From positions 248,001 to 312,000 of the forward strand of contig NZ_AKKV01000020.1 of the NCBI RefSeq assembly GCF_000269865.1: 64,000 nt of DNA, written 5' to 3'. A program made the position numbers and the translations under genes. The notes beneath the pieces were generated by a model. The model searched no databases, was not told the origin of the DNA, and saw only the letters and a list, made by a program, of their open reading frames with translations. Below are positions 5,199-36,545 of the stretch, in pieces. The stretch's first letter is position 1. Each line of letters starts with the position of its first letter. The stretch comes from Fictibacillus macauensis ZFHKF-1 (GTDB lineage: Bacteria > Bacillota > Bacilli > Bacillales > Fictibacillaceae).

Positions 5199-6476
5199 TT
5201 ATACGGTTTTCACTTCAGGAAGAGGACGCTCTTCCACAAGACCTTCTCCTTCATATTCCGATAGATGGCGAACGCCTGTTGCAAAATCTTGCTGCTCTAA
5301 CTCCATCGCCTTTGGAACAGATAACCAATAAGCAAAACCAACGGCAATGACACCTGCACCAAATTTCCCAAGTAAGATTGGTAAGATTAACGATGGTTGA
5401 AAATTGGCTGTAAAGGATAGATGATCGCCAAATAAAAAGGCTGAACATACCGCAAAGGAAATGTTGACCACTTTATCTTTCGCACGCATGAATTTCACGA
5501 GACGAAACATCGCTAAAATATTCGCGCAAGACGCTAACAGTCCTGCACTTCCAGAAGCACCAAGTCCTAATTTGCGCCCCATAGCATTCAACGGTCTTGC
5601 GCCGAATTTTCGAATCATATACACCATCGGAAACGCTCCACAAAGCATAATACCGATATAACCTGCTGTTTCTAGTGCACGGAATTGATCTTTCTTATCG
5701 GCAATAATAGGATCAAAGCCCCACGAACCAAAGAGCGCCGAAAAGGCACCTGTAAAGTATTCAACAATTGCAAAAACTAAAACGAGTTTAATGCCTGCAT
5801 CCATTAGTTTTCCAAACCACATAAAGCCTTTAATCATCACATCAGGATAAAATTTTAGACCGAGGGCAAGGACAACTACAAAAATAATTAACGGCGATAA
5901 ATTTAAAAGAATTTGCCCAAGTGTTAGTGATAGTTGATAACTACCTTCACCGCCCGTACTAATGACGCCACGAACATTTGCATTCATTAACATCATCGTG
6001 ACACTGGCAATAAAGACACCAATCGGAATCGTCAACACACCCGACATCACACCTAACGCCATATATTTATGATCGCGCTTATCAAGCATGGCTAGTCCAA
6101 CTGGAATAGAGAATACAATCGTTGCTCCAGATATAAAGCCAACCGTCATCGCCATAATCCAGCTTTCCTTCGTAGCCGCTAGCGCATTGGCGAGTTGATA
6201 GCCACCCATATCTACCGCAATAATCGTTGTCGCAGCTATCGCCGGATCTGCCCCAACGGCATGAAACAACGGTCCGCATACTTTTTCAATAAAGGCCGAT
6301 AAATAAGGAATGGCCGCCATAATACCTGCTGCCGGGACAAAAATATAGCCAACGGAATGCAATCCTTCCATAAACTCGCGCCCAATGCCGTCCTCACTGT
6401 TTTTAATGGCCGCAAAGGCACCAATAACCGCACACGCCATAATGACATAAATCACATACGTTCCAATCTGACTCAA
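5199..6476 (-). CDS. eutH: Ethanolamine transporter EutH
   Basis: A polytopic membrane protein of 425 residues with about ten hydrophobic segments and a short charged C-terminus. The residue pattern (GADPAIAATTIIAVDMGGYQ, an SGSAG-like small-residue segment, LFGDHLSFTANFQP) is that of the EutH family, proposed to import ethanolamine when it is scarce or protonated. The start was set at TTG 6476 because AGGAGGGG lies 7 bases upstream; the frame stays open further upstream but without an SD. It is last in the eut unit, separated from the BMC gene by a hairpin and a cre-like site. Confidence 0.9.
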   Translation of the reverse strand: MSQIGTYVIYVIMACAVIGAFAAIKNSEDGIGREFMEGLHSVGYIFVPAAGIMAAIPYLSAFIEKVCGPLFHAVGADPAIAATTIIAVDMGGYQLANALAATKESWIMAMTVGFISGATIVFSIPVGLAMLDKRDHKYMALGVMSGVLTIPIGVFIASVTMMLMNANVRGVISTGGEGSYQLSLTLGQILLNLSPLIIFVVVLALGLKFYPDVMIKGFMWFGKLMDAGIKLVLVFAIVEYFTGAFSALFGSWGFDPIIADKKDQFRALETAGYIGIMLCGAFPMVYMIRKFGARPLNAMGRKLGLGASGSAGLLASCANILAMFRLVKFMRAKDKVVNISFAVCSAFLFGDHLSFTANFQPSLILPILLGKFGAGVIAVGFAYWLSVPKAMELEQQDFATGVRHLSEYEGEGLVEERPLPEVKTV

Positions 6477-6505
6477 AGGATAACCCCTCCTTTTTACTTT
6501 TACTT

Positions 6506-6519
6506 TGAAAGCACTTACA
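6506..6519. promoter_or_regulatory. Candidate cre (CcpA) site in the eutH leader
   Basis: TGAAAGCACTTACA matches the cre consensus TGWNANCGNTNWCA at all defined positions but the central G. It lies just upstream of the eutH SD, where a roadblock could reduce eutH under catabolite repression. Short degenerate motif, so only suggestive. Confidence 0.3.
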
Positions 6520-6527
6520 TTTCTATG

Positions 6528-6573
6528 AATCAAGTAACCCGCTCATCGTAAAAGAGGTACGGGTTACTTGATT
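6528..6573. repeat. Inverted repeat between the second BMC-H gene and eutH
   Basis: A perfect 14-bp inverted repeat (6528-6541 with 6560-6573) encloses 18 nt. No U-tract follows on the minus strand, so it is not a normal terminator. It could act as an RNA stability or processing element that sets eutH expression separately from the shell genes. Confidence 0.7.
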
Positions 6574-6577
6574 TAGA

Positions 6578-6946
6578 TTATTTACTTTTTTTCTTCGGTG
6601 CTGTCTTTACGTCTGCCTCTTCATCTCTTGATGTTTCTTTCGGTTTCAAGACGTTTGGCTTCGCAGCAGGCTGTAACATACCGGCTAATTCATCATCTGG
6701 ACGTGGAATAATATGACTCGACACGAGTTCTCCGACGCGCATCGCTGCTTCTCTTCCAATCTCAACAGCCGCCTGTACGGCACCAACGTCACCTTCGACT
6801 AAAACGGTAACGAGCGCACCATCGACTTTCTCCTGCTTTAATAGCTTTACATCAGCTGCTTTAATCATGGCATCAGCTGCTTCAATTGAGCCGATTAAAC
6901 CTTTCGTTTCGATCATACCAATTGCTTTTCCCATAAGATTATTCAC
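6578..6946 (-). CDS. BMC-H microcompartment shell protein with a basic C-terminal tail
   Basis: One bacterial-microcompartment domain (about residues 6-88), with the [21 protein letters not shown] opening and the HIIPRPDDEL end of hexamer-forming shell proteins of the EutM/PduA/PduJ type. It carries an extra tail of about 30 residues that is charged and ends in KKKSK, absent from the 93-residue paralogue at 8539-8820. The tail may bind cargo, DNA or cytosolic partners. Its start overlaps the eutN stop by 4 nt (ATGA), so the two are coupled. Confidence 0.9.
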   Translation of the reverse strand: MNNLMGKAIGMIETKGLIGSIEAADAMIKAADVKLLKQEKVDGALVTVLVEGDVGAVQAAVEIGREAAMRVGELVSSHIIPRPDDELAGMLQPAAKPNVLKPKETSRDEEADVKTAPKKKSK

Positions 6947-7215
6947 CTCTTCTCAACATCGATCGAATCGACAATACCAATAACGACTGAATCGAGAGGA
7001 ACATCGTGATCATCCATTACAAAACGCGCTGCACTTCCGTTCGTAATCATCACTTTATCACCTAAACCGGCGCCTACTCGATCTGCAGCAATAATTGGCG
7101 AATCAACTGCTGTTCCATCGGGATTTTCTAATTGCACAAACAAAAATTTTAAACCGGTTAGTCCCTCTTCTTTTCGGGTAGCCCAAATATTACCTATAAC
7201 CGTGCCTAAGCGCAT
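6943..7215 (-). CDS. eutN: EutN/CcmL-type pentameric vertex protein
   Basis: At 90 residues it spans the whole EutN_CcmL fold, with the typical opening MRLGTVIGNIWATRKEEGLTG, the IIAADRVGAGLGDKVMITNGSAAR core and a C-terminal VVGIVDSIDV strand. Proteins of this family form pentamers that cap the vertices of the polyhedral shell. Stop and start overlap with the next BMC-H gene (ATGA), suggesting stoichiometric coupling. Confidence 0.93.
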   Translation of the reverse strand: MRLGTVIGNIWATRKEEGLTGLKFLFVQLENPDGTAVDSPIIAADRVGAGLGDKVMITNGSAARFVMDDHDVPLDSVVIGIVDSIDVEKR

Positions 7216-7233
7216 CCCATCACCCCAAATCGC

Positions 7234-7869
7234 TTACGTTCTACTAAGCGTGATCTCTTTTCTTCTTGCCGCATCTCGTGCCAACGGCGTAACAATGGTT
7301 CCCGGTGCAAGCAGCAGTGTTTGTTCAGTGAATGCTTCGACTGCACGTTCGGTTAATAAAGGGGCATCATAGACGGCAGTAGATGAAGAGACTTTCGTTT
7401 CCTGCTGCTCATGAAGCCATTGCTCCATTGTCGTACAGCTCACACCAAAAGCTTCTAATCTACTTTTTTGATTGTGTAAGTAAGCCTTATACGCACTGTT
7501 TCCATTAAATTTAAAAGAGTCCTCGTAAGACAGAAACAATGTTGGTTGTAATCCTTGGTGCAACGCTTCGGCAAGCGCTTTACTTTTTGCCGTATCCGTT
7601 AAACCTAATGCACCACGCACAATCAAATCTTGATCACAATTTAAAAATATAATGTCGCTTTCCTTCTTTACGTCGAGATCCTTTTGTAGCGAAGAAAGCA
7701 CGGTAAGCTCATAGCGCTGACCGATCGCTTGCGTTAGCTTATTCATGCTCCCTTCATCCTCCACCTCTCCCCATACGTAAAGATGTGGTTTTACGGGAAG
7801 CGCTGACAGTTGTTGAAGTACTTCTTGAACAATGGTAGCAATAAGCGTTGCATCCACAGAAGTTGTCAT
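7234..7869 (-). CDS. Conserved microcompartment-associated protein of unknown function (TIGR02536-like)
   Basis: A 211-residue protein I believe belongs to the ethanolamine-utilisation 'hypothetical' family TIGR02536, found in Gram-positive eut operons; that recollection needs a search. The first ~20 residues (DATLIATIVQEVLQQLSAL) form an amphipathic helix like an encapsulation peptide, and a linker and globular part follow. A conserved-looking segment near the C-terminus reads GTIVTPLARDAARRK. No catalytic motif is recognised. It overlaps pduL by 4 nt, so it is translationally coupled to a lumen enzyme and is probably itself lumenal. Confidence 0.8.
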   Translation of the reverse strand: MTTSVDATLIATIVQEVLQQLSALPVKPHLYVWGEVEDEGSMNKLTQAIGQRYELTVLSSLQKDLDVKKESDIIFLNCDQDLIVRGALGLTDTAKSKALAEALHQGLQPTLFLSYEDSFKFNGNSAYKAYLHNQKSRLEAFGVSCTTMEQWLHEQQETKVSSSTAVYDAPLLTERAVEAFTEQTLLLAPGTIVTPLARDAARRKEITLSRT

Positions 7870-8516
7870 GACGTAGTTGTTCCCTTCAACAACGTGCCTG
7901 TCACTACTCCCGAAACAGCAGCAGCGTTTGCTTCATCCGTATCAATATGCATTTCACACGTATAGCGGTCAGATATGCGAATCAATACATCATGAAAGGC
8001 GACTGGCCGTTCTGATGAAATAACAACCGTTACTTTTTCCCCATCAGCTACATTAAAGCGCTGACCATCTTCAACACTCATATGAATATGACGTTGGGCG
8101 ACGATGACGCCTTCTTCAAGTACGATGCTTCCTCTGGGACCAATCAGCACACATGAAGCAGAGCCCTTAATATCTCCCGACTGACGAAGCGGTGGCTTAA
8201 TCCCTATTTTCAAGGCATCGGTCAGGGAGATCTCCACTTGGGTAGCATTACGAACGGGTCCTAAGACACGAACCCGTTCGATGCTTCCTTTCTTCCCAGC
8301 AATCGTAACCGTTTCTTCGGCTGCAAATTGTCCAGGTTGTGATAAATCAGCTCTATGTGTTAATTCATACTGAGGTCCAAATAAGATCGTCACATGCTCT
8401 TGTGAAAGATGAACATGACGCGCGGATACAGCGATCGGAACACTGTTTTGTTCAGTTTGTTCTTGAAGTTTATGAACGACTTGTTCTACGATAGAGCGAA
8501 CCATTTGCTCATTCAC
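7866..8516 (-). CDS. pduL: PduL-type phosphotransacylase
   Basis: This 216-residue protein has the two PduL repeats with their histidine motifs: AVSARHVHLSQEHVTILFG near residue 30 and IVAQRHIHMSVEDGQRF near 145, which bind the two active-site zinc ions. It converts acetyl-CoA and phosphate to acetyl-phosphate and CoA, recycling CoA inside the compartment; here it takes the place of EutD, which is absent. The N-terminus (MVRSIVEQVVHKL) is an amphipathic helix of the encapsulation-peptide type. The downstream gene overlaps it by 4 nt. Confidence 0.9.
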   Translation of the reverse strand: MNEQMVRSIVEQVVHKLQEQTEQNSVPIAVSARHVHLSQEHVTILFGPQYELTHRADLSQPGQFAAEETVTIAGKKGSIERVRVLGPVRNATQVEISLTDALKIGIKPPLRQSGDIKGSASCVLIGPRGSIVLEEGVIVAQRHIHMSVEDGQRFNVADGEKVTVVISSERPVAFHDVLIRISDRYTCEMHIDTDEANAAAVSGVVTGTLLKGTTTS

Positions 8517-8538
8517 AGGTGATCGCCTTCCTTTCTAT

Positions 8539-8820
8539 TTAGAGCAATTCTCCCTTTGGTAAAATCGCTTCTAATTCGTTATGTGGACGTGGAATTACGT
8601 GAACAGATAATAGTTCACCAATTCGTTGTGCAGCCGCTGCTCCTGCTTCAGTTGCTGCTTTTACTGCTCCTACATCACCACGTACGAGTACTGTAACTAA
8701 CCCGCCACCTACATGAACTTTTCCTACAAGATTAACATTTGCTGCTTTTACCATTGCGTCCGCTGCCTCCACTGATGCAACAAGACCTTTCGTTTCAATC
8801 ATTCCTAATGCGTTAGACAT
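8539..8820 (-). CDS. eutM: Major BMC-H shell protein EutM
   Basis: A 93-residue single-BMC-domain protein ([26 protein letters not shown]...[15 protein letters not shown]), the size of EutM/PduA hexamers that tile the shell facets, with a small-residue pore segment. It has no extension, unlike the paralogue at 6578-6946. A strong SD (GAGGAAC) precedes the ATG. It lies between the aldehyde dehydrogenase and pduL genes. Confidence 0.93.
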
Positions 8821-8851
8821 TTTTAGTTCCTCCTCAAGGATTGGTTATTTT

Positions 8852-10387
8852 TTAGTGTGATTGTTTTGCTAACGTTGCACTTACTAGTTTCTTAATGGCA
8901 ACAGGATCATTCGCCATCTCAGGACTAGCTTTCGCTAGCACTTGAGCGACAATCGCTTGAATGCTGTCATCTGTTGCGAGCTGTGTTTCCTGTTGCTCGT
9001 CGTTTACAGTTGTTTCAACTGCTTTTTCTACGACAATGTCTCTTGTTCCATACGCCACACGTTTTTTCATAAACAAATGGGTAACCGTTACGTTGTCAGA
9101 TGTCACATTCCCGCCATACGTTCCGCAACCGAGTGTAAAGGATGGCTTCAAGTTCGTTGTTGCACCAACAGCCCCAAGTGCTGAAGGCGTATTAACAAGC
9201 AAACGGGAAACAGGCATTTTTAAGGCGAACGTTTTAACGATTTCATCGTCCGATGTGTGCAGCGCAAGCGAATGACCACGGCCGCCAAGCGCAAGAAGTT
9301 GATTGGATAAATCAAGCGCTTCCACTGAATCACTTGCTGTATAGAATGCAAACACAGGTGCTAGTTTTTCAATCGAAAACGGCACATGTTTGCCGACTTC
9401 TGTTTCGAAGGCAATTAATAACGTTGTCTCGCTTGGCACGGAGATGCCGGCCATTTTTGCAATGACTAGCGGCGACTTCCCAACGATTTTCGGATTTAAT
9501 TTGCCTGGAAGTGGAGAAATCGTTGTCTCCATCTTTTTCTTTTCTTCATCGTTTAAAAAATAAGCACCGCGGTTTTTTAATTCACGAACCGCCATTTCTT
9601 TAATATTCTTATCGACAATAATGCTTTGTTCTGAAGCACAAATGGTTCCATAATCAAATGTTTTGCTATCAACGATATGGCCGACAGCGGCTTTTACATT
9701 GGCCGTTTTTTCGATATACGCTGGAACGTTACCTGGTCCAACGCCAAAGGCCGGCTTTCCTGAGCTATACGCTGCGCGTACGAGTCCGCTGCCACCAGTA
9801 GCAAGAATAACGTTAACGTCACGGTGCTTCATCAACTGCTGCGTTGCTTCCATCGTAGGCGATGAGATCCAACCGATGAGGCCTTTAGGCGCTCCCGCTT
9901 TTTCAGCGGCTTCAGCGCAAATTTCCGCTGCCGTAATCGTACAGTTCTTTGCCGATGGATGCGGACTAAATACGATGGCGTTACGTGCTTTAACCGCAAT
10001 TAGCGTTTTGAAAATGGCGGTTGATGTTGGATTCGTTACTGGAACAATGCCAGCAACGACGCCATATGGAACAGCAACCTCTATTACTTTTTGACGCTGA
10101 TCTTCTTGAAGAATGCCGACCGTTCTAACATCTTTAATCGATTCATAAACGTCTTTAGAACCCACTTGGTTTTTAATCTCTTTATGTGCGACAACGCCAA
10201 GACCTGTTTCCTCTACAGCGAGCTTTGCCAGGTGAAGAGATTGCGCATACGCCGCATCAGCGATTGCTTGCACGACAGCATCCACTTGCTCTTGCGTAAA
10301 CGTACTGAAAATTTCTTGTGCTTCTTTTGCTTGTTGTACAGCATTTCTCATTTCTTGTAAGGAAACGAGATCGTGATCAAATGCCAT
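8852..10387 (-). CDS. eutE: CoA-acylating acetaldehyde dehydrogenase EutE with a C-terminal encapsulation peptide
   Basis: An aldehyde dehydrogenase-superfamily protein of 511 residues with the acylating-class active-site Cys in DYGTICASEQS (C250) and the nucleotide-binding segment GGSGLVRAAY. It should oxidise acetaldehyde to acetyl-CoA with NAD+ and CoA inside the shell. The N-terminus enters the catalytic domain directly, while the last ~41 residues are a linker plus an amphipathic helix (SIQAIVAQVLAKA) and a second helix, which looks like a cargo tag placed at the C-terminus. It sits between eutL and eutM. Confidence 0.92.
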   Translation of the reverse strand: MAFDHDLVSLQEMRNAVQQAKEAQEIFSTFTQEQVDAVVQAIADAAYAQSLHLAKLAVEETGLGVVAHKEIKNQVGSKDVYESIKDVRTVGILQEDQRQKVIEVAVPYGVVAGIVPVTNPTSTAIFKTLIAVKARNAIVFSPHPSAKNCTITAAEICAEAAEKAGAPKGLIGWISSPTMEATQQLMKHRDVNVILATGGSGLVRAAYSSGKPAFGVGPGNVPAYIEKTANVKAAVGHIVDSKTFDYGTICASEQSIIVDKNIKEMAVRELKNRGAYFLNDEEKKKMETTISPLPGKLNPKIVGKSPLVIAKMAGISVPSETTLLIAFETEVGKHVPFSIEKLAPVFAFYTASDSVEALDLSNQLLALGGRGHSLALHTSDDEIVKTFALKMPVSRLLVNTPSALGAVGATTNLKPSFTLGCGTYGGNVTSDNVTVTHLFMKKRVAYGTRDIVVEKAVETTVNDEQQETQLATDDSIQAIVAQVLAKASPEMANDPVAIKKLVSATLAKQSH

Positions 10388-10408
10388 GATATGGCTCCTT
10401 TCTCTTCC

Positions 10409-11062
10409 TTAATAGCTTCTAGGTGACTTTGCTATGGAAATAATTGCTTCTCTAAAGGCTTCTGCTGCGGCACGGCATGCTGATTCCGTTCCTGTTACTA
10501 AGCCTCCACCATAATTTGTTTCTGAAGGTGGTCCGTAAAAGGTCGCAAGTTGTACGTCAGCTGCTTTCAACGCATAGTCAAGACCAACAACCGCTTCAAG
10601 CGGAGGAGCAATTAAATAGGCAAGAGGCTGTCCTATAGCAATTCCAGCCACTTTTGATAAGTAACTGCCTGTTCGTGAAATTACGTGGGCAAACAGCGCA
10701 TGGTTGCCTTCTTCATCAAGCGCCTCAAAAGCCGCTTCATGCTCAATCGTATGAATGGCCGCATCAATACCACTTCTTACCTCATCGGGAGTCGGACCGG
10801 CAACAATGCCGATAAATTCTCCGGAAAGTGGGCCAGAAGCATGACTAGCACCAGCATAAAACGATTTAGCATACGCTACTTCGACATTCGCTTGTTTCGT
10901 GGCCTCATCAAGTGCTGTAAAGCCCACATCATCGCTCGTCGTTGTTAAAATCCCTAAACTTTTAAACGACGATGGAACATGAAGCGCCTCACATAGAGCA
11001 GCATCTGCATTCGGAATAAGCCGTACAGCTAAAATGTCCGTTTGTATTCTTCGTAAGCTCAC
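10409..11062 (-). CDS. eutL: EutL-type tandem-BMC (BMC-T) shell protein
   Basis: A 217-residue protein with two tandem permuted BMC domains; the second ends in the EutL-like YYG-type segment read here as PPSETNYGGGLVTGTESACRAA. EutL trimers form pseudohexamers with a large gated central pore, thought to pass cofactors or substrates. It follows eutC with a 13-nt gap and its own SD (GGAGGGA), between the lyase genes and eutE. Confidence 0.92.
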   Translation of the reverse strand: MSLRRIQTDILAVRLIPNADAALCEALHVPSSFKSLGILTTTSDDVGFTALDEATKQANVEVAYAKSFYAGASHASGPLSGEFIGIVAGPTPDEVRSGIDAAIHTIEHEAAFEALDEEGNHALFAHVISRTGSYLSKVAGIAIGQPLAYLIAPPLEAVVGLDYALKAADVQLATFYGPPSETNYGGGLVTGTESACRAAAEAFREAIISIAKSPRSY

Positions 11063-11075
11063 TCGTTGTCCCTCC

Positions 11076-12005
11076 TTATTTTTCTTTCTGTAGCAAGGAA
11101 ACGCCGCTCGCTTTAAAGGTTAATACTTTCTTAATAACATTTCCTAAGTAAGCCCCAGCCTCTGCCGGTGGAATTCCACCTCTATGAATATTGGAAACAA
11201 CCATACGATCCGCTTCAATCGTTCCTTTGCGCGGCTGATAGCAAATATAGGCACTTAATGATTCAGCGGAAATTAACCCTGGTCTTTCACCAATTAATAA
11301 AATAATAACGTCTGGTTGTAACAATTCACCGATTTCATCCATAACGGCCACTCGGCCATTTTTCACGAAAAAGGGTGTGCCCGTTTGAAAACCTAATTGA
11401 TTTAACGATTGTGATAGCGATAAGTACACATCTTCCGCATTTTGTTCGATCGCTTCCGAACTTAAGCCATCCGAAATCACGATTTGTACTTGTGGATTTT
11501 TTTCACACTGTGATTCAATCAGTTTTTTGCTGTCTTCATTTAACTTGCGACCAAGATCTGGACGACGAATGTATTCTTCTTGTGTTTCGGTGGACGTTTG
11601 GACAGAAAACCACTTCATGCGTGATAATAGATCCTCAGTCACTTTGCCATATACTGCATCGACAGCCGCCGCATGATCTAATCGAAATTTCAAGAGTGCG
11701 TTCGTTTTAGGTCGAACACCCGCGCGTCCAATACCAATACGGGCTGGTGTTTTCTCTTGATTTTCTAAAAGCTTTTCTTTGTTCTTTGGAGACGCTACTG
11801 TTGAATAAAAAGTAGGTTCTTCAATTGCTTCTTCGTCACTACGCGTTGTGTCAGTCACTTCTCCGAAGGTAGGTTTCGTATTTAAATTGTTATAAATTTT
11901 CACCATACGCATAGAAGCTGGTGGTTTTACTGAAGCGCTATGCTGCTCCACCTTTAATTCCTCTAATACCATGCTTGTTACTTTTTCGATTAATGTGCGA
12001 TCCAT
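11076..12005 (-). CDS. eutC: Ethanolamine ammonia-lyase small subunit EutC
   Basis: The 309-residue small subunit. The C-terminal ~210 residues carry the EutC core, with ARIGIGRAGVRPKT, LDHAAAVDAVYG, VISDGLSSEAIEQNA and LIGERPGLISAESLSAYICY, which help bind adenosylcobalamin. The first ~20 residues (DRTLIEKVTSMVLEEL) are an amphipathic helix of the type that targets the lyase to the compartment lumen, and a ~80-residue low-complexity linker separates it from the core. With EutB it converts ethanolamine to acetaldehyde and ammonia. Confidence 0.95.
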   Translation of the reverse strand: MDRTLIEKVTSMVLEELKVEQHSASVKPPASMRMVKIYNNLNTKPTFGEVTDTTRSDEEAIEEPTFYSTVASPKNKEKLLENQEKTPARIGIGRAGVRPKTNALLKFRLDHAAAVDAVYGKVTEDLLSRMKWFSVQTSTETQEEYIRRPDLGRKLNEDSKKLIESQCEKNPQVQIVISDGLSSEAIEQNAEDVYLSLSQSLNQLGFQTGTPFFVKNGRVAVMDEIGELLQPDVIILLIGERPGLISAESLSAYICYQPRKGTIEADRMVVSNIHRGGIPPAEAGAYLGNVIKKVLTFKASGVSLLQKEK

Positions 12006-12023
12006 CTCTTTACATCACCTCCC

Positions 12024-13385
12024 TTAATGGAATAGTGTTAAATCTCCTGCAAGTCCTGTTAATTTGCCTTTTTCCATTAGACCCATTGATTCAAGCCAGC
12101 CTTCAAAATGAGGCGACGTTCGTTTACTCATCGTTTGGCGAAGTGTGGCAACGTCATGATAGCTCATCGATTGATAGTTCAACATACAATCATCACCCAT
12201 CGGTGTTGCAATGATGAAGTTCACCCCAGCAGCTGTTAATAAAACACCAAGGTTTTCCATATCATTTTGATCGGCTTTAATGTGATTTGTGTAACAAATA
12301 TCAACACCCATGGAAATGTTGTGCATTTTCCCCATAAAGTGATCTTCAAGACCTGCACGAATCACTTGTTTGTTATCATACAAATACTCTGGTCCAATAA
12401 AACCTACGACTGTATTTAAAAGAAACGGTTCATATTTGCGTGCAAAGCCATAGTTGCGCGCCTCTAGCGTAACTTGATCAATATCATAATGCGCCTCAGC
12501 GGATAGCTCTGAACCTTGTCCTGTTTCAAAATACAAACGATTCGGCCCTTTTGATGTTCCGAGAGAATTAATCATATCGTGCGCTTCATCAAGAAGGGAT
12601 TGTGAGATCCCAAATGATTTATTCGCTGCTTCTGTGCCAGCGATACTTTGAAAAATCATATCTGCTGGTGCGCCTTCTTCGATCGCTTTCATTTGCGTCG
12701 TTACATGGGCAAGCACACAATTTTGCGTAGGAATCTTCCAATCTTGCATAAAATCATGCGTGGCATGAAGCAGGCGTTTCACACTTTCAACGGAATCATC
12801 GACCGGGTTAATTCCAATTACAGCATCACCAATGCCATACGATAATCCTTCTCGTAATGATGCGAGCATGCCTTCAACGTTGTCGGTCGGATGATTCGGT
12901 TGCAGACGAGAAGCAAGCACACCTTTTTGTCCAACCGGTGTATTACAACACGTAATAATCTCCATTTTACTCGCTGCAAACACGAGATCTAAATTGGACA
13001 TGAGTTTCGTAACTGCTGCAATCATTTCACTATTGAGGCCAGTGCTTAACTTACGTAAATCACTCCCCAGCGTGTCATCTGCTAAAATATGTTCACGCAA
13101 TTCCGAAACCGTCCAATTCCGCACCGCCATGTAGACTGTCTCGTTTATTTGCTCATCAATTAAACGCGAGACCGCATCCTCATCCGGAGATAAAAAGGGA
13201 TAATCGCGGATATCTTTTAACGTAATTTCACTTAAAACATGCTTAGCAGCAATTCGTTCTTGGACCGTTTCCGCTGCTAGTCCCGCTAAGCGATCGCCCG
13301 ACTTTTCTTCATTTGCTTTTGCAAATACTTCTTTTAAACTTTTAAACTGATATACTTGTCCGAGAAGTTTTGTTTGCAGCTTCAT
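12024..13385 (-). CDS. eutB: Ethanolamine ammonia-lyase large subunit EutB
   Basis: At 453 residues this is full length for the TIM-barrel catalytic subunit. Family blocks are clear: KEVFAKANEEKSGDRLAGLAA, CNTPVGQKGVLASRLQPNHP, GDAVIGINPVDDS, YFETGQGSELSAEAH and FIIATPMGDDCMLNYQS. The substrate-binding Glu of the FETGQGSELS block is present. It requires adenosylcobalamin, yet no adenosyltransferase gene (eutT) lies in this window. It is flanked by eutA (16-nt gap) and eutC (18-nt gap). Confidence 0.97.
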   Translation of the reverse strand: MKLQTKLLGQVYQFKSLKEVFAKANEEKSGDRLAGLAAETVQERIAAKHVLSEITLKDIRDYPFLSPDEDAVSRLIDEQINETVYMAVRNWTVSELREHILADDTLGSDLRKLSTGLNSEMIAAVTKLMSNLDLVFAASKMEIITCCNTPVGQKGVLASRLQPNHPTDNVEGMLASLREGLSYGIGDAVIGINPVDDSVESVKRLLHATHDFMQDWKIPTQNCVLAHVTTQMKAIEEGAPADMIFQSIAGTEAANKSFGISQSLLDEAHDMINSLGTSKGPNRLYFETGQGSELSAEAHYDIDQVTLEARNYGFARKYEPFLLNTVVGFIGPEYLYDNKQVIRAGLEDHFMGKMHNISMGVDICYTNHIKADQNDMENLGVLLTAAGVNFIIATPMGDDCMLNYQSMSYHDVATLRQTMSKRTSPHFEGWLESMGLMEKGKLTGLAGDLTLFH

Positions 13386-13400
13386 ATCGTTCTCACCTTT

Positions 13401-14819
13401 CTATTTGTGAAAAGCTAATGTTTTCACAACGACTGGAACGACTTCTGACTGTAGCATGCTACCGATGTCAAGATAGTCGCCATTATCAATACTAATTTGA
13501 TCAATACAAATAACAGGTCGATGAGGCACAATTGCTTGGATACACTGACCAAGAACTTTTGCTAAATCATTGGCCACAACAATCACGATTGGCAAGGCGT
13601 CATGGACTGTGTGGTGTAACGAGTCCACTAGCCAAACAGCCAGTTGCTGTATGTCTTTAAAGCGCAAGACACCAAGTCCTGATAAGAACAGCGCAAATAG
13701 ATTTCCTTCCGCCAATGGATCATACAGTGCTCCCGCTTGCTCCATTTCTTTTCTAACAATCTGTTCATCAATTTGACCATTTGGAAAATGGAAGCGATGA
13801 ACCGGTAGATTTTTTAATGGCAACACGTCAGGACTGACTTGAATCGTTGCTCCACTAATTTCTGTCGTTTGTGTTCCTGCGCCTAGCACGGTTGCACGAA
13901 CCGTTTCCGTAGGCGTTACTCTTTGCCAACGCGCTAAGGCAGGGCTCTCTTTAAGCTTTTGCGCTAGCTTCACTCCGATATCGTTATAGTGACCATCACA
14001 ACGATCGCTGTAATATAAACACTCACTTACGCCTCCAGAAAACATGATCACTTCTACCTCGTCAGACCAATCAGGTACATGACCGAGCAGAAAAGGATGA
14101 TGTTGTAATTCCTGACTGCCTTGTAAAGCTAAGACGAGCGTTCGCACCATCTCTTCTAATAACGCATCTACATGAGCCATGTCGACATTATTAATGCCTC
14201 TAGTACGTGCCCATTGCATGACCGGTTTTGAAACATGCGTCACCACATTGTCTTGAAATTGAATTAAACGCCCCCCGACGTGAAGGGTACATGTGCCGCA
14301 TAGTTTACCAGCTTTATAGACAGCTAGATTTGCCGTACCACCGCCAATATCAATATTCGCTACACATTGACCTGTTGCAATAGAATAGTCATACGCGCCT
14401 GATCCCTTCGCTGCGATGATGCCTTCTAGATCCGGTCCTGCGGTTGCGACAAGAAACTCACCCGCTTCGCTCGCCAAATCGTGAATCATTTCTGCTGCAT
14501 TTTCCTTTGTCGCACTTTCACCGGTAATAATGACAGCTCCTGTTCGAATAGCGCTCGAAGCAATGCCCGCTTTTTCATATTCTCCATGAACGATTTCATG
14601 AATGGCAGGCATATTTAAGTGGGTACCACCATCTAGTAACGGCGTTTGAAAAATCGGACTGCGATACAAAATTACTTTATCAATAATTTCGATGCGCGGT
14701 ACATGGCTTACACCTGCTGTATTTACAAGCGTAAATTCACTAATAATCATTTTTGTCGTGCTCGTTCCAATATCGATTCCAGCGCTTATGATCGTTTCTT
14801 TACGGTTGGCTCTTGACAT
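13401..14819 (-). CDS. eutA: Ethanolamine ammonia-lyase reactivating factor EutA
   Basis: An ASKHA-fold ATPase of 472 residues. The nucleotide-binding signature SAGIDIGTSTTKMI is at the N-terminus and a second phosphate motif (VANIDIGGGTANLAVY) near residue 175. EutA exchanges damaged cobalamin in EutBC for adenosylcobalamin, using ATP. The start is ATG 14819 with a GGGGGGAG SD; an in-frame start 57 nt upstream would lie in the leader next to the terminator. The gene follows a hairpin/terminator leader that should put it under EutV control. Confidence 0.93.
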   Translation of the reverse strand: MSRANRKETIISAGIDIGTSTTKMIISEFTLVNTAGVSHVPRIEIIDKVILYRSPIFQTPLLDGGTHLNMPAIHEIVHGEYEKAGIASSAIRTGAVIITGESATKENAAEMIHDLASEAGEFLVATAGPDLEGIIAAKGSGAYDYSIATGQCVANIDIGGGTANLAVYKAGKLCGTCTLHVGGRLIQFQDNVVTHVSKPVMQWARTRGINNVDMAHVDALLEEMVRTLVLALQGSQELQHHPFLLGHVPDWSDEVEVIMFSGGVSECLYYSDRCDGHYNDIGVKLAQKLKESPALARWQRVTPTETVRATVLGAGTQTTEISGATIQVSPDVLPLKNLPVHRFHFPNGQIDEQIVRKEMEQAGALYDPLAEGNLFALFLSGLGVLRFKDIQQLAVWLVDSLHHTVHDALPIVIVVANDLAKVLGQCIQAIVPHRPVICIDQISIDNGDYLDIGSMLQSEVVPVVVKTLAFHK

Positions 14820-14848: not shown

Positions 14849-14912
14849 CATAAAAAAAATGCCTGACAACACACAAGCAGAACTTGAGTGAATTGTCAGG
14901 CGCCGTTGCCCA
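14849..14912 (-). promoter_or_regulatory. eutA leader: EutV-type hexaloop hairpin overlapping an intrinsic terminator
   Basis: On the minus strand the eutV-eutA gap holds a terminator (TTGTCAGGC/GCCTGACAA at 14893-14901 and 14861-14869, then eight T). Its 5' arm overlaps a small hairpin, GGC-AACGGC-GCC (14899-14910), whose hexaloop has the A1/G4 pattern recognised by ANTAR antiterminators such as EutV. Holding this hairpin would block the terminator. I could not find a convincing first hairpin upstream, so the site is incomplete against the two-hairpin model. Confidence 0.6.
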
Positions 14913-15512
14913 TTAAGATGAAATTTTTACGGAAAAATCAAAGGATTGGTGCGTAATAATATACTGTGCAAGTTGCTTCATAACGATGCGATGATTCATG
15001 CAATAGCTGCGTAATTTTTGGTACGCACTCTCTTCATTGAGATGATGCGTTTCCATTATAATACCTTTTGCCTTTTCAATTAGCTTACGCTCTTCAATCT
15101 TTTCTTCTAGCTTTCTCATATCTTTTAATAAGCGTTTTACTTTTTGGCTTTGTGCCAGCGCAATTTCAACGGCTGGAATCAGCTGTTGCTCAGTTACCGG
15201 TTTAACGAGATAACCGACAATACCTGCTTTTTTTGCATCTTCCACGTCTTCTGTTTGACTATAGGCTGTTAAGAGGAGAACAGGAATGTTAAAGCTTTTT
15301 TCAATGATACGTGACGCTTTAATGCCGTTCATTTTAGGCATCTTCACATCCATTAAGATTAAGTCCGGTTGATGTAGTGCCGCCATTTCAATGGCTAATT
15401 CCCCCGTGTTCGCTTCAGCCGCGATTTCATACCCGGCTTCGCTCAGCATTTCCTTTAAATCCATTCGTAAAATGGATTCATCGTCCACGACCATAATCCT
15501 ACCTTTACTCAT
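14913..15512 (-). CDS. eutV: ANTAR-domain response regulator EutV
   Basis: A 199-residue response regulator. The receiver domain (1-120) has the acidic pair D10/D11, phospho-acceptor D55 (LMDVKMP) and a Lys in YLVKPV. A short coiled linker leads to an ANTAR RNA-binding domain (about 130-190: LIEKAKGIIMETHHLNEESAYQKLRSYCM). Phosphorylated by EutW, it should dimerise and bind hexaloop hairpins to prevent termination in eut leaders. The start is ATG 15512, 6 nt after AGGAGG; it overlaps the eutW stop by 8 nt, so the pair is coupled. Confidence 0.94.
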   Translation of the reverse strand: MSKGRIMVVDDESILRMDLKEMLSEAGYEIAAEANTGELAIEMAALHQPDLILMDVKMPKMNGIKASRIIEKSFNIPVLLLTAYSQTEDVEDAKKAGIVGYLVKPVTEQQLIPAVEIALAQSQKVKRLLKDMRKLEEKIEERKLIEKAKGIIMETHHLNEESAYQKLRSYCMNHRIVMKQLAQYIITHQSFDFSVKISS

Positions 15513-16941
15513 GTTCATCCTCCTGTTCAATCCTAAATTCAACATACGCTGTCGTTCCATGATCAGCGTTACGAGAAAGCGTAAATTGGCCGCCAAGATC
15601 AAACGTTGTTAAATTCCGTACGATTTCTAGACCAAGATGCTCTTTACTTTCTTGAAGAGGCATCCCATCACCGTCATCTTTTACAAACAGTTGGATGGTG
15701 CGCTGATCGCTGACCATTTTCACTTCAATTGATCCTTGTTTCTTTTTTTGATACCCGTGCTTTAAACTATTTTGTAACAACTCTGTTACAACGAGTGCTA
15801 AAGAAACAGCATGACTGGAAGGAAGCGTGACCGCATCAAGCTGCAGTTCCAAGTGAATGCGCGTATCTTCCATCTCTGCCTGAAAAACAAGCATTTTTGA
15901 CACTTTTTGAATGACCTCTTTAATGTCCACTTCCTCAATCCCGCTATAGGATAAATACTCATGAACCGTCGCAATGCTAACAATTCGATTTAAGCTTTCC
16001 TGATACAACCCTTTTGCCTCTTCGGGAACACCGCGTCTAAGTTGAAGGCGCAAAAGGCTTGCAACGGTCTGAAGGTTATTTTTGACGCGATGATGAATTT
16101 CCTTGATGACAGCAGACTTTACGACTAATTGACGTTCCTTCTCTCGTAAATCAGAAATGTCTCGTATGTAAAGAAGCACTCTTCCGGAGTTATCGCCGGA
16201 ACGAAGCCGAATAATGCGTTTGCAATAGACTCTTCCTTCGTAGGCTTCCTCGCGTTCACTTAAGTCGCTGTGACGAAGAACCTCTCGTGTTATGAACGGT
16301 AATACCTGGTCTACCTTTTTGCCTTTATAAGAGAGCGACGACGCATTTGAATGATTTTCCATTAGACGCAGCGCATAATTGTTTGCATACAAGATCTCTC
16401 CTGTACCCTCTAAAAACAATAAGCCTTCTTCTAACACATCAGGAATCGACGGCTCCTGAGAAATAATGCCCCATACGGTTCGGCTCATTTCCTCCGTCGT
16501 TTTCGTTAATGTTTCAATGGCTTTCTCGTCTTGAATTTGAGCCGTTATATCTTTTTCTGCAATCACTACGCCAATCACCGTTCCATTGGTATGAATAATT
16601 GGCAATACATTTTGACTAACGGTCATTCCTTCAGGAGTAACCGCACGATGATTCATAACCGGCTTCCCTGATTTAAAGGAACGAAAGACAGCTGGTTCAA
16701 ATGCTTTAGAAATACATTTTCCCGTTACATGTTCTTTATAAATAGGAATCGTTGTCCTAGGAATGGCTTCGGCAACAACAATCGCTGTTCCCTCATCAAT
16801 AATACAATCAATAAAAACATGAGATTGTGATAAGTCTGCCATCGTTTGCAACGATTGACTTTGCTCTTGGATGAGCGCAATGGCCTCATCTTCTAAGTCG
16901 GTGTACTGACGACATAACTGGTATAGCCCAGATGGTTCCAT
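15505..16941 (-). CDS. eutW: Sensor histidine kinase EutW
   Basis: A 478-residue soluble kinase. Residues 1-140 form an N-terminal sensory domain (HisK_N-like, presumably the ethanolamine sensor), 165-270 a PAS-like domain, then a HisKA_2 phospho-acceptor motif KEIHHRVKNNLQ (H283/H284) and a HATPase_c domain with DDGDGMP and a G-rich lid. No membrane segments are seen, so it senses a cytosolic ligand. ATG 16941 is chosen for its SD (AAAAGGAG, 7-nt spacing) and because an upstream TTG at 16980 falls inside the leader terminator. It has its own promoter and leader. Confidence 0.92.
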   Translation of the reverse strand: MEPSGLYQLCRQYTDLEDEAIALIQEQSQSLQTMADLSQSHVFIDCIIDEGTAIVVAEAIPRTTIPIYKEHVTGKCISKAFEPAVFRSFKSGKPVMNHRAVTPEGMTVSQNVLPIIHTNGTVIGVVIAEKDITAQIQDEKAIETLTKTTEEMSRTVWGIISQEPSIPDVLEEGLLFLEGTGEILYANNYALRLMENHSNASSLSYKGKKVDQVLPFITREVLRHSDLSEREEAYEGRVYCKRIIRLRSGDNSGRVLLYIRDISDLREKERQLVVKSAVIKEIHHRVKNNLQTVASLLRLQLRRGVPEEAKGLYQESLNRIVSIATVHEYLSYSGIEEVDIKEVIQKVSKMLVFQAEMEDTRIHLELQLDAVTLPSSHAVSLALVVTELLQNSLKHGYQKKKQGSIEVKMVSDQRTIQLFVKDDGDGMPLQESKEHLGLEIVRNLTTFDLGGQFTLSRNADHGTTAYVEFRIEQEDEHE

Positions 16942-16956
16942 GCGAAGACTCCTTTT

Positions 16957-17020
16957 GAAACAAAAAGGCTCCTTCAACACAGAGATCTCTCCTCTTTTGG
17001 TTGATAGGCGCCTTTGCCTA
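16957..17020 (-). promoter_or_regulatory. eutWV leader: perfect hexaloop hairpin overlapping a possible terminator
   Basis: TAGGC-AAAGGC-GCCTA (17005-17020) is a perfect 5-bp stem with a hexaloop of the A1/G4 pattern. The segment 17006-17015 can instead pair with 16964-16973 (9 of 10 bp), and TTTTTGTTT follows on the minus strand, forming an alternative terminator just before eutW. The terminator is weaker than the other two, because of a mismatch and a ~32-nt loop. Confidence 0.45.
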
Positions 17021-17042
17021 CTGCATATTTATTTTCAATACA

Positions 17043-17071
17043 AGAATACTGCAAATTCCGACAGTTGTAAA
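17043..17071 (-). promoter_or_regulatory. SigA-type promoter for eutWV
   Basis: TTTACA (17071-17066), a 17-bp spacer and TATTCT (17048-17043) on the minus strand, in the gap between eutP and eutW. This would give the two-component system expression independent of eutSP. Confidence 0.55.
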
Positions 17072-17082
17072 GGCTTTCATGT

Positions 17083-17574
17083 TTAAAGTACTATATTTTC
17101 AGAATTTTCATGACAATATCGCTGTATTTCTTCGTCTGTTTCGCATGCTAGTATCGGGTAAATATGGTGAATTCCAATAGCGTTTGGAGCTGACGTTAAC
17201 ACGATGGGACCTGCTGACATCGCTCGACGAAGCAACGTAATACTTCGCTTCACATCGGCTTGATCGTGGTCTATTTTTGTAATAACACCGAGCGTGCGCT
17301 TTGGAATCCCTTTCGAAAAGCCTGGTGGAAAGATACACGTCGTTCGCGTAGCATCTTGTAAAAATATAACATGACTCGCCTCAAGCGATGTGGCCATAAT
17401 CGTTTTATAAAACATCGGATTTTCACTATACTCACCTGGCGTATCGATAATCCAATCTTTATAATTCATCGCTTGTGTTTTTACTGCCACATGCGTCATT
17501 CCTAAAAGCGCATTCGTTAAGGTCGTTTTTCCTGCTCCAATAGCCCCGATAATCATAACCCGAGGTTGTTTCAC
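17083..17574 (-). CDS. eutP: EutP/PduV-type small GTPase-like protein
   Basis: At 163 residues it has a P-loop GAIGAGKTTLTNAL near the N-terminus, a G3-like DTPGEY motif and an ITKIDHD block in the position of the G4 motif, the layout of the EutP/PduV family. Family members have been linked to acetate kinase activity or compartment dynamics; the role here is not shown by sequence. The gene follows eutS by 11 nt and precedes the separate eutWV promoter. Confidence 0.9.
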   Translation of the reverse strand: MKQPRVMIIGAIGAGKTTLTNALLGMTHVAVKTQAMNYKDWIIDTPGEYSENPMFYKTIMATSLEASHVIFLQDATRTTCIFPPGFSKGIPKRTLGVITKIDHDQADVKRSITLLRRAMSAGPIVLTSAPNAIGIHHIYPILACETDEEIQRYCHENSENIVL

Positions 17575-17585
17575 GCTGACTCCCC

Positions 17586-17927
17586 CTATGATTTCGTAAT
17601 AACAGATGGTGTATATTTTAAATTTTCACTTAAAAACGTATTCACTTTTTCCATTGCTAATTCTACTTCAGAAACACTGCCAACTAGCACTAAACTTCCT
17701 GTAAACCGATCGAGAAAGCCGAGCGATACGCTCGCAGCCTTTGTTGCTAAATCTCCTGCAATGATGACCGTTTCACTTGGTGTTAACGTTAAAATGCCAA
17801 GTGCTCCTGCTTGTGTAATGCCTAACTTTTCAAACATTTCCGGATCTGGATTGGCAATTAAATGACTGAGTGTCACCTGCTTACCTGGGACAAATTCTTG
17901 AATAAATCTTTTTTTATCTTCTTCCAT
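17586..17927 (-). CDS. eutS: EutS-type circularly permuted BMC shell protein
   Basis: A 113-residue shell protein with the EutS/PduU features: an N-terminal extension ([26 protein letters not shown]) that forms the beta-barrel cap over the hexamer pore, then a permuted BMC domain with [27 protein letters not shown]. EutS hexamers are bent and thought to shape edges of the shell. It is first in the locus, preceded by a SigA promoter and an antitermination-type leader. Confidence 0.94.
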
Positions 17928-17948
17928 CGTTAAATACCCCTTTCCAAC

Positions 17949-17994
17949 AAAAAAAGCCTCTCTTCACGTTGCGTGAAAAAGAGGCGTCATTGCC
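17949..17994 (-). promoter_or_regulatory. eutS leader: hexaloop hairpin overlapping an intrinsic terminator
   Basis: On the minus strand, GGC-AATGAC-GCC (17983-17994, hexaloop with A1 and G4) overlaps the 5' arm of a strong terminator (17972-17985 with 17956-17968, then seven T). This matches the P2-plus-terminator arrangement of EutV targets. The predicted transcription start (~18000) leaves almost no room for an upstream P1 hairpin. Confidence 0.6.
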
Positions 17995-18005
17995 GTTTTT
18001 CTCTT

Positions 18006-18034
18006 ATTATAACATGCTATAAAAAGCTGTCCAA
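18006..18034 (-). promoter_or_regulatory. SigA-type promoter for the eut locus
   Basis: TTGGAC (18034-18029), a 17-bp spacer and perfect TATAAT (18011-18006) on the minus strand; transcription should start near 18000, directly before the antitermination leader. A 12-bp palindrome GAAAACGTTTTC (18043-18054) lies just upstream of the -35 and may be a CcpA or other operator. Confidence 0.8.
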
Positions 18035-36270: not shown

Positions 36271-36545
36271 CGCAAAAAAGTCCCTGCTACTCTAGCAGGG
36301 ACGAATGTGCATCGCGGTACCACCCTAAATTGCGGAATCGTAGTTCCGCCACTTCTTTTTATATAACGGCTATGCACCGTCCTTACTTAAACAACGGAAG
36401 GTATACCGCGTTTAGGTAAGGAATGCTCGAGGGTGTAATTCGATTTCTTCTTTGTGCTGATTTCCACCAACCATCAGCTCTCTATGAAACAGGGAGAAGA
36501 ATTCTACTGTTGCCTGTCATTGCGTGTTTCTATAATAAATTTTAA
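36271..36545 (-). ncRNA. T-box riboswitch leader of the aro operon (probable tyrosine specifier)
   Basis: On the minus strand the leader has the T-box core GGGTGGTACCGCG (about 36310-36330) and ends in the terminator GTCCCTGCTA/TAGCAGGGAC plus TTTTTT (36302-36275). Stem I carries GAGAGC and a TTGGTGG loop, and a GTAGAA/GAA S-turn pair flanks the specifier loop. The specifier reads TAC (Tyr) followed by A. The Stem III-like hairpin GCGGAA/TTCCGC is also visible. Uncharged tRNA-Tyr would favour the antiterminator. Codon choice was made by eye, so Tyr is likely but not proven. Confidence 0.92.
36280..36302 (-). terminator. T-box terminator hairpin
   Basis: Perfect 10-bp stem (36280-36289 with 36293-36302) with a 3-nt loop and six T after it on the minus strand. 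Confidence 0.93.

Follow-up and report, generated by a model that had tools for sequence, protein, structure and literature searches.

The three leaders of the ethanolamine-utilisation (eut) operon of Fictibacillus macauensis ZFHKF-1 each carry one ANTAR-type hexaloop hairpin that overlaps an intrinsic terminator, and none carries a second such hairpin upstream of it. The operon lies on the minus strand of a 64,000-nucleotide (nt) stretch of contig NZ_AKKV01000020.1 (assembly GCF_000269865.1, positions 248,001 to 312,000; hereafter the window, in whose coordinates features are given), and the leaders precede eutS, eutW-eutV and eutA. It is likely that the ANTAR protein EutV antiterminates all three operon segments through this single hairpin, P2, without the companion hairpin P1, and that a short sequence box usually takes the place of P1 in leaders sampled outside the Enterococcus faecalis-type EutV clade.

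In the eutS leader, the hexaloop GGC-AATGAC-GCC is found at 17983-17994 of the minus strand, and its 3′ arm begins the 5′ arm of an intrinsic terminator (17949-17985) that is followed by a T run. The eutW-eutV leader contains GTAGGC-AAAGGC-GCCTAT (17004-17021), in which the core GGC-AAAGGC-GCC (17018-17007) sits on a stem that can be extended to six base pairs (bp); its terminator (16962-17015) also ends in a T run, as does that of the eutA leader (14852-14901), where the hexaloop is GGC-AACGGC-GCC (14899-14910). At each leader, the loop has the A1 and G4 positions on a stem of at least 3 bp, and the 3′ arm of P2 is shared with the overlapping terminator, which makes the two structures mutually exclusive. 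All three terminators lie within minimum-energy folds (z = −2.95 for eutS, −1.65 for eutW and −2.21 for eutA). The consensus GGC-AANGRC-GCC and the overlap with the terminator 5′ arm, both put forward in the initial annotation, thus hold at all three leaders.

Exact-pattern scans of the 3.74-Mb genome were used in place of the covariance-model scan suggested earlier. The pattern GGCAANGRNGCC has 13 matches and its reversed control 22; because it is this sparse, the presence of three of the 13 in the three eut leaders is not attributable to chance. A second pattern, AGCAANGRNGCT, has 26 matches (control, 21). Across these 39 exact consensus matches, a credible leader terminator accompanies just three: those of eutS, eutW-eutV and eutA. 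One of the other ten GGCAANGRNGCC matches, L228, has a terminator-like fold and was rejected, as it is antisense within a 254-amino-acid (aa) open reading frame (ORF) that was read by eye as an alpha/beta hydrolase. Four AGC..GCT sites (L273, L288, L292 and L296) passed a relaxed terminator test only, and none folds into a P2-based hairpin that ends in a U tract.

The regulator expected to act on these hairpins is encoded between the leaders. EutV (14913-15512, minus strand) matches the Pfam Response_reg and ANTAR families, is a relative of the proteins in 6wsh and 6ww6, and has a receiver domain with the phospho-acceptor Asp54. Its closest named homolog is from Fictibacillus fluitans (80% identity). 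With an ANTAR profile score of 66.9 bits, it is the sole clear match in the genome; the two marginal matches score 22.8 and 21.8 bits, and the latter rises to 28.2 when in-frame neighbours are included. The residues reported to contact RNA in Enterococcus faecalis EutV are all retained except R177, which is a valine here and is variable in both EutV clades described below. Because these contacts are kept, the window EutV should engage the hexaloop as its E. faecalis counterpart does. EutW (15505-16941, minus strand) matches histidine-kinase families below their curated cut-offs and is assigned as the sensor kinase with the help of its synteny with eutV in relatives. The position of eutW and eutV, the single clear ANTAR protein, the retained contact residues and the recurrence of the hairpins in relatives (below) lend good support to the earlier proposal that the three leaders form one EutV regulon.

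Comparison was made across 66 distinct EutV loci of Bacilli, the window included, taken from named contigs and from genomes of the family and class. In a tree of EutV proteins, eight loci group with E. faecalis EutV (100/100 support) and 58 fall elsewhere. This grouping replaced one by gene order, as L204, L206 and L207 have eutV before eutW yet fall outside the E. faecalis-type clade. Before sites were counted, we dropped hexaloops within BLAST-matched genes, stems that had one G/C pair or none or that were neither GGC nor AGC, loops that were not AA-N-G, rows of L177 with no downstream eut gene and one row of L213. Of the P2 sites that remained, 19 belong to the E. faecalis-type clade and 107 do not; the 107 include some doubtful rows (L187 near eutN, and L188, L201 and L159 at 201, 1128 and 1996 nt before eutW, respectively).

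Recurrence of the hairpins in related eut loci had been set beforehand as a test of the initial annotation, and it is seen. Among Fictibacillus and Aneurinibacillus relatives, eutS, eutW and eutA again have hexaloops that overlap terminators, and in other families such hexaloops occur at eutA, eutH or eutL; the eutS hairpin is kept in nine loci, the window among them. The terminators covary: in an RNAalifold analysis, 12 of the 18 terminator base pairs show compensatory changes across 11 eutA leaders, as do seven of 13 across nine eutS leaders. The P2 stem is nearly invariant by comparison, being GGC/GCC at 63 and AGC/GCT at 29 of the 97 near-gene sites outside the E. faecalis-type clade. The constancy of A1, G4 and the paired stem is partly built in, as these were demanded by the search. 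A reading in which the hairpins are incidental to constitutive attenuators, with no protein acting on them, would fit terminators that are stable on their own, and is highly improbable given that the loop positions and the P2 stem are fixed while the terminator stem covaries (subject to the limit just given) and that the box-P2 pattern described below is tied to genomes that encode EutV.

The P1 hairpin was sought as an A1/G4 hexaloop on a stem of at least 3 bp within 45 nt upstream of each P2. None is present at the three window leaders. In the E. faecalis-type clade, P1 is found at 15 of the 19 P2 sites; outside it, at 4 of 107, and at only one of these 107 with a linker of 2-20 nt. Consistent with this distribution, folding of the 38 nt upstream of P2 gives a mean z of −2.05 in the E. 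faecalis-type clade, which indicates structure, and of −0.1 elsewhere, which does not. Promoter predictions also leave little space: a promoter was called at 43 of the 107 sites, with a median of 19 nt from predicted +1 to P2 and 31 of the 43 within 22 nt. At eutS, the predicted promoter (18006-18034, minus strand; TTGGAC/TGGACA, a spacer of 16-17 nt and TATAAT, with TG before the −10 element) is the best in the scan, with 11 of 12 consensus matches, and places +1 at 17999, just 5 nt before P2. If this promoter is right, there is no room for P1 at eutS. The eutW-eutV promoter (17043-17071, minus strand; TTTACA-17-TATTCT) has a predicted +1 that lies 18 nt before P2.

Outside the E. faecalis-type clade, most of the sampled leaders contain a conserved box in place of P1. 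The sequence AAGTNNATA occurs exactly upstream of P2 at 42 of the 107 sites, which had been picked irrespective of it (0.84 expected from base shuffles), and, if a single mismatch is allowed, at 79, where about 13 would be expected; a control stretch 35-60 nt upstream has it at 1 of 107. Of these 79 boxes, 74 are 4-10 nt from P2. They occur before eutA, eutH, eutL and eutW, and none of the 19 E. faecalis-type sites has one. In the window, the eutW-eutV leader contains AAATAAATA, one mismatch from the AAGTNNATA box, at 17026-17034 of the minus strand, 7 nt upstream of P2. A whole-genome search for the box, a spacer of 4-10 nt and P2 found the pattern in 57 of 398 genomes of the class: of the 72 that encode an EutV-like protein, 49 have it, and of the 326 that do not, 8 have it. 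In total there were 100 matches, compared with 12 for the reversed control. The box does not appear to pair with flanking RNA, as the mean longest complement in the 79 leaders shows no excess downstream (4.23 versus 4.31 in shuffled sequence) or upstream (4.16 versus 4.01). Two other explanations of the box were tried and set aside. It could represent C-terminal codons of eutV, and 22 of the 107 boxes do lie in an ORF, yet among the remaining 85, 65 differ from AAGTNNATA at one position or not at all. It could also be a general terminator or NusA feature; before terminators without P2 it was found at 1 of 373 (1.1 expected), whereas the same detector found it at 10 of 21 P2 terminators. The chance level at ordinary terminators, the frequency at P2 terminators and the association with EutV genomes tie the box to ANTAR sites.

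The factor that reads the box is a separate matter. P2 may be the EutV site while a different factor, such as NusA through its KH domains, reads the AAGUNNAUA box, or the box may be a feature of the transcription start. The box consists of two short conserved blocks with two free bases between them, and such a split site is the layout expected for paired KH domains. The NusA boxC target of Mycobacterium tuberculosis is similar in layout; a NusA-type site is the main rival for the box, although the boxC sequence on which it depends was not confirmed in the literature searched. The genome itself provides a comparable arrangement outside the eut leaders: at C48:3232-3249 (L262), the boxA-like TTCCTTGAAAACTAGATA consists of a boxA-type stretch followed by AACTAGATA, resembling the layout of the AAGTNNATA box. 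In addition, promoter-proximal boxes start near the predicted +1. Against these alternatives, boxes are also present in leaders where no promoter was called, are at chance frequency before ordinary terminators and are absent from the E. faecalis-type clade. Reading of the box by a factor other than EutV, or a start-site role for it, is therefore judged unlikely.

The preferred reading, single-P2 antitermination by EutV, can be set out as follows. By default, transcription would terminate in the eutS-eutP, eutW-eutV and eutA leaders. EutW would sense ethanolamine, leading to phosphorylation of EutV, and a dimer of phosphorylated EutV would then bind the one A1/G4 hexaloop of each leader. Held in the bound hairpin, the 3′ arm of P2 would be kept out of the terminator and the operon would be read through; eutW-eutV would thereby be autoregulated. 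In the E. faecalis model, the dimer is on P1 first and then passes to P2. The window leaders have no P1 to receive it. In most of the leaders sampled outside the E. faecalis-type clade, the unpaired AAGUNNAUA box occupies P1's place and probably loads EutV before P2 emerges. The Enterococcus mechanism to which the initial annotation referred thus does not carry over in full: the hexaloop-terminator overlap is seen and one EutV regulon is well supported, whereas P1, which the initial annotation did not mention, is absent at all three leaders.

Several observations weigh against this reading. ANTAR targets are described as two hairpins, and in E. faecalis deletion of P1 ablated induction (PMC3369931). 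The affinity of NasR for P2 alone is about twelve times weaker than for P1P2 (PMC7496416), and because of this some aid to P2 binding may be needed. In the window's own eutA and eutS leaders the best box has two mismatches, the level of shuffled sequence; there P2 alone must suffice if the reading is right, and at eutW the box is weak. No exact box-P2 match is present in the window's own genome, 20 of the 85 intergenic boxes have at least two mismatches, and the eutS hairpin was not found at L168 and L215 despite their shared gene order. The promoters, finally, are predictions from consensus matches only. On the other side, Walshe et al. found that EutV touches one hexaloop at a time and redefined the smallest motif that it binds as one hexaloop (PMC8934654). 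The same authors retain P1 as a recruitment hairpin and leave the role of single-hexaloop sites for further work.

An alternative is that the leaders are ordinary dual-hairpin targets with a P1 that is imperfect, or that sits farther upstream because the transcript is longer. In E. faecalis, the single system in which this was examined, P1 proved essential, and a change of A1 or G4 in either loop reduces induction (PMC3369931). Moreover, the P1 rule misses 4 of the 19 E. faecalis-type sites, two of which (the eutA leaders of L197 and L198) show a mismatched P1 by eye, and a hexaloop, GAA-AACGTT-TTC, does lie 48 nt upstream of the eutS P2 (18054-18043). No other A1/G4 hexaloop lies close upstream of eutS, and this one is located upstream of the predicted promoter. 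In E. faecalis the P1-P2 linker is 5-12 nt, and 3 or 14 nt already impaired induction (PMC3369931). This spacing, the frequency of P1 (4 of 107 versus 15 of 19 sites), the lack of surplus structure upstream of P2 and predicted starts at 5 nt (eutS) and 18 nt (eutW) from P2 make a hidden P1 quite improbable.

Box-P2 or P2 leaders are not confined to the main eut cluster. In one genus, a distal eutH far from that cluster (L253:1500-2873; Pfam EutH, 410 bits; also L258) has both the box and P2 upstream. Such leaders also precede peptidase C26 and aldehyde dehydrogenase genes in L203, amino acid permease genes in L206 and L159, and, in L213, a second EutVW-like system of Fictibacillus, genes for an M20 peptidase, an aldehyde dehydrogenase and a glutamine-synthetase-like protein. 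In L203, L205, L213, L214, L206, L207 and L159, leaders of this kind before peptidase C26, aldehyde dehydrogenase, glutamine-synthetase-like, M20 peptidase or permease genes adjoin EutV-like regulators. The combination of peptidase C26, aldehyde dehydrogenase and glutamine-synthetase-like genes suggests gamma-glutamyl amine catabolism. It is reasonably probable that the sampled EutV lineages of Bacilli outside the E. faecalis type share a second ANTAR antiterminator architecture, in which the terminator holds a single P2, P1 is missing and its place is usually taken by an unpaired AAGUNNAUA box that would recruit EutV, a short way downstream of the promoter if there is one, and that this architecture also governs operons outside the eut locus. 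Its most reduced form would be the window eutS leader, which lacks the box and whose predicted transcript has P2 right at the 5′ end.

Elsewhere in the genome is a candidate EutV decoy RNA of the EutX/Rli55 type. The region L005:1501-2000 (C31:3795-4294), outside the window and far from the eut operon, holds a riboswitch, a terminator and two A1/G4 hexaloops. The riboswitch, one of five for cobalamin in the genome and none among the window matches, has an aptamer scoring 123 bits (C31:3795-3987) and is followed by a terminator hairpin (L005:1769-1790). The two ANTAR-type hairpins, TTGATCGTC-AATGGC-GATGATCAA at about L005:1820-1843 and GAAGC-AACGGC-GCTTC at about 1911-1926, have no terminator on them, and there is no plus-strand ORF of at least 60 aa in L005:1747-2531. 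In these respects (aptamer, terminator, then terminator-free hairpins in a non-coding transcript) the RNA is like EutX/Rli55 as described in PMC5821096. Both hairpins lie in the minimum-energy fold (z = −8.1); across the 66 loci (2.27 Mb of both-strand sequence), hexaloops of this kind on stems of 8 bp or more number 13, and nowhere do two comparable hairpins lie within 150 nt of each other. The RNA differs from EutX/Rli55 in its distance from the eut operon, in having hairpins about 70 nt apart rather than a close pair and in its lack of a counterpart in relatives: none was convincing among 70 of 72 cobalamin riboswitches from 15 genomes (12 with EutV and three without; two in G203 were left out). 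L360 qualified as a counterpart but lies within a 191-aa ORF, and L307 did so only when read on the strand opposite to its riboswitch. In a family-wide DNA search, other genomes matched the aptamer part only, and the consensus scan called no promoter for the L005 RNA. According to a review (PMC5821096), EutX could in theory sit anywhere in the genome. A ZMP/ZTP riboswitch (RF01750, 51.5 bits) is located at L005:2917-3010 on the minus strand.

The operon itself reads, on the minus strand, eutS, eutP, eutW, eutV, eutA, eutB, eutC, a bacterial microcompartment shell gene in the eutL position, eutE, eutM, eutD, a 211-aa ORF, a eutN-type gene, a second eutM-type gene and eutH. The shell protein EutS (17586-17927) matches PRK15468 over its cut-off, and the EutP-like protein (17083-17574) matches TIGR02528 at 117 bits, below the cut-off of 138. 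The genes 3′ of the eutA switch, from eutA to eutH, occupy 5199-14819. The 211-aa protein (7234-7869) has no Pfam match at 1e-5 and is 30-39% identical among relatives. When the window was searched against Rfam, only a T-box leader (36294-36529, minus strand; RF00230, 129 bits) and a tRNA exceeded their gathering scores, and no ANTAR family was matched.

The closest known systems are the EutV antiterminators of the E. faecalis eutP, eutG, eutS and eutA leaders (PMC3369931, PMC8934654), which have in common with the window EutV/EutW, a terminator-overlapping A1/G4 hexaloop and eut genes. The P2 core AANGR is also common to both, the published E. faecalis core being AGCAANGRRGCUY. The window differs in having no P1, a predicted start 5-20 nt from P2 and eutW before eutV, and many of its relatives have the AAGUNNAUA box. 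The NasR-nasF and AmiR-amiE leaders likewise have ANTAR antitermination at a terminator-overlapping P2-type hexaloop and, unlike the window, are described as two-hairpin targets (PMC3369931; PMC7496416). The dual hairpin is the accepted definition of an ANTAR target and was used in the genome searches of PMC3369931 and PMC8164766. No description of single-hexaloop antiterminators in Bacilli or of the AAGUNNAUA box was found in the portions covered of PMC3369931, PMC8934654, PMC5821096, PMC7496416 and PMC8164766; most subscription literature was outside this coverage, so absence in print is not shown.

The window leaders are natural single-hexaloop candidates on terminators and bear on the question raised in PMC8934654. 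With the box as a concrete candidate for the replacement of P1, that question becomes directly testable. If the P2-only architecture is true, the published dual-hairpin covariance searches covered here would miss it, and a model that combines the box with P2 should recover ANTAR regulons that dual-hairpin models have missed.

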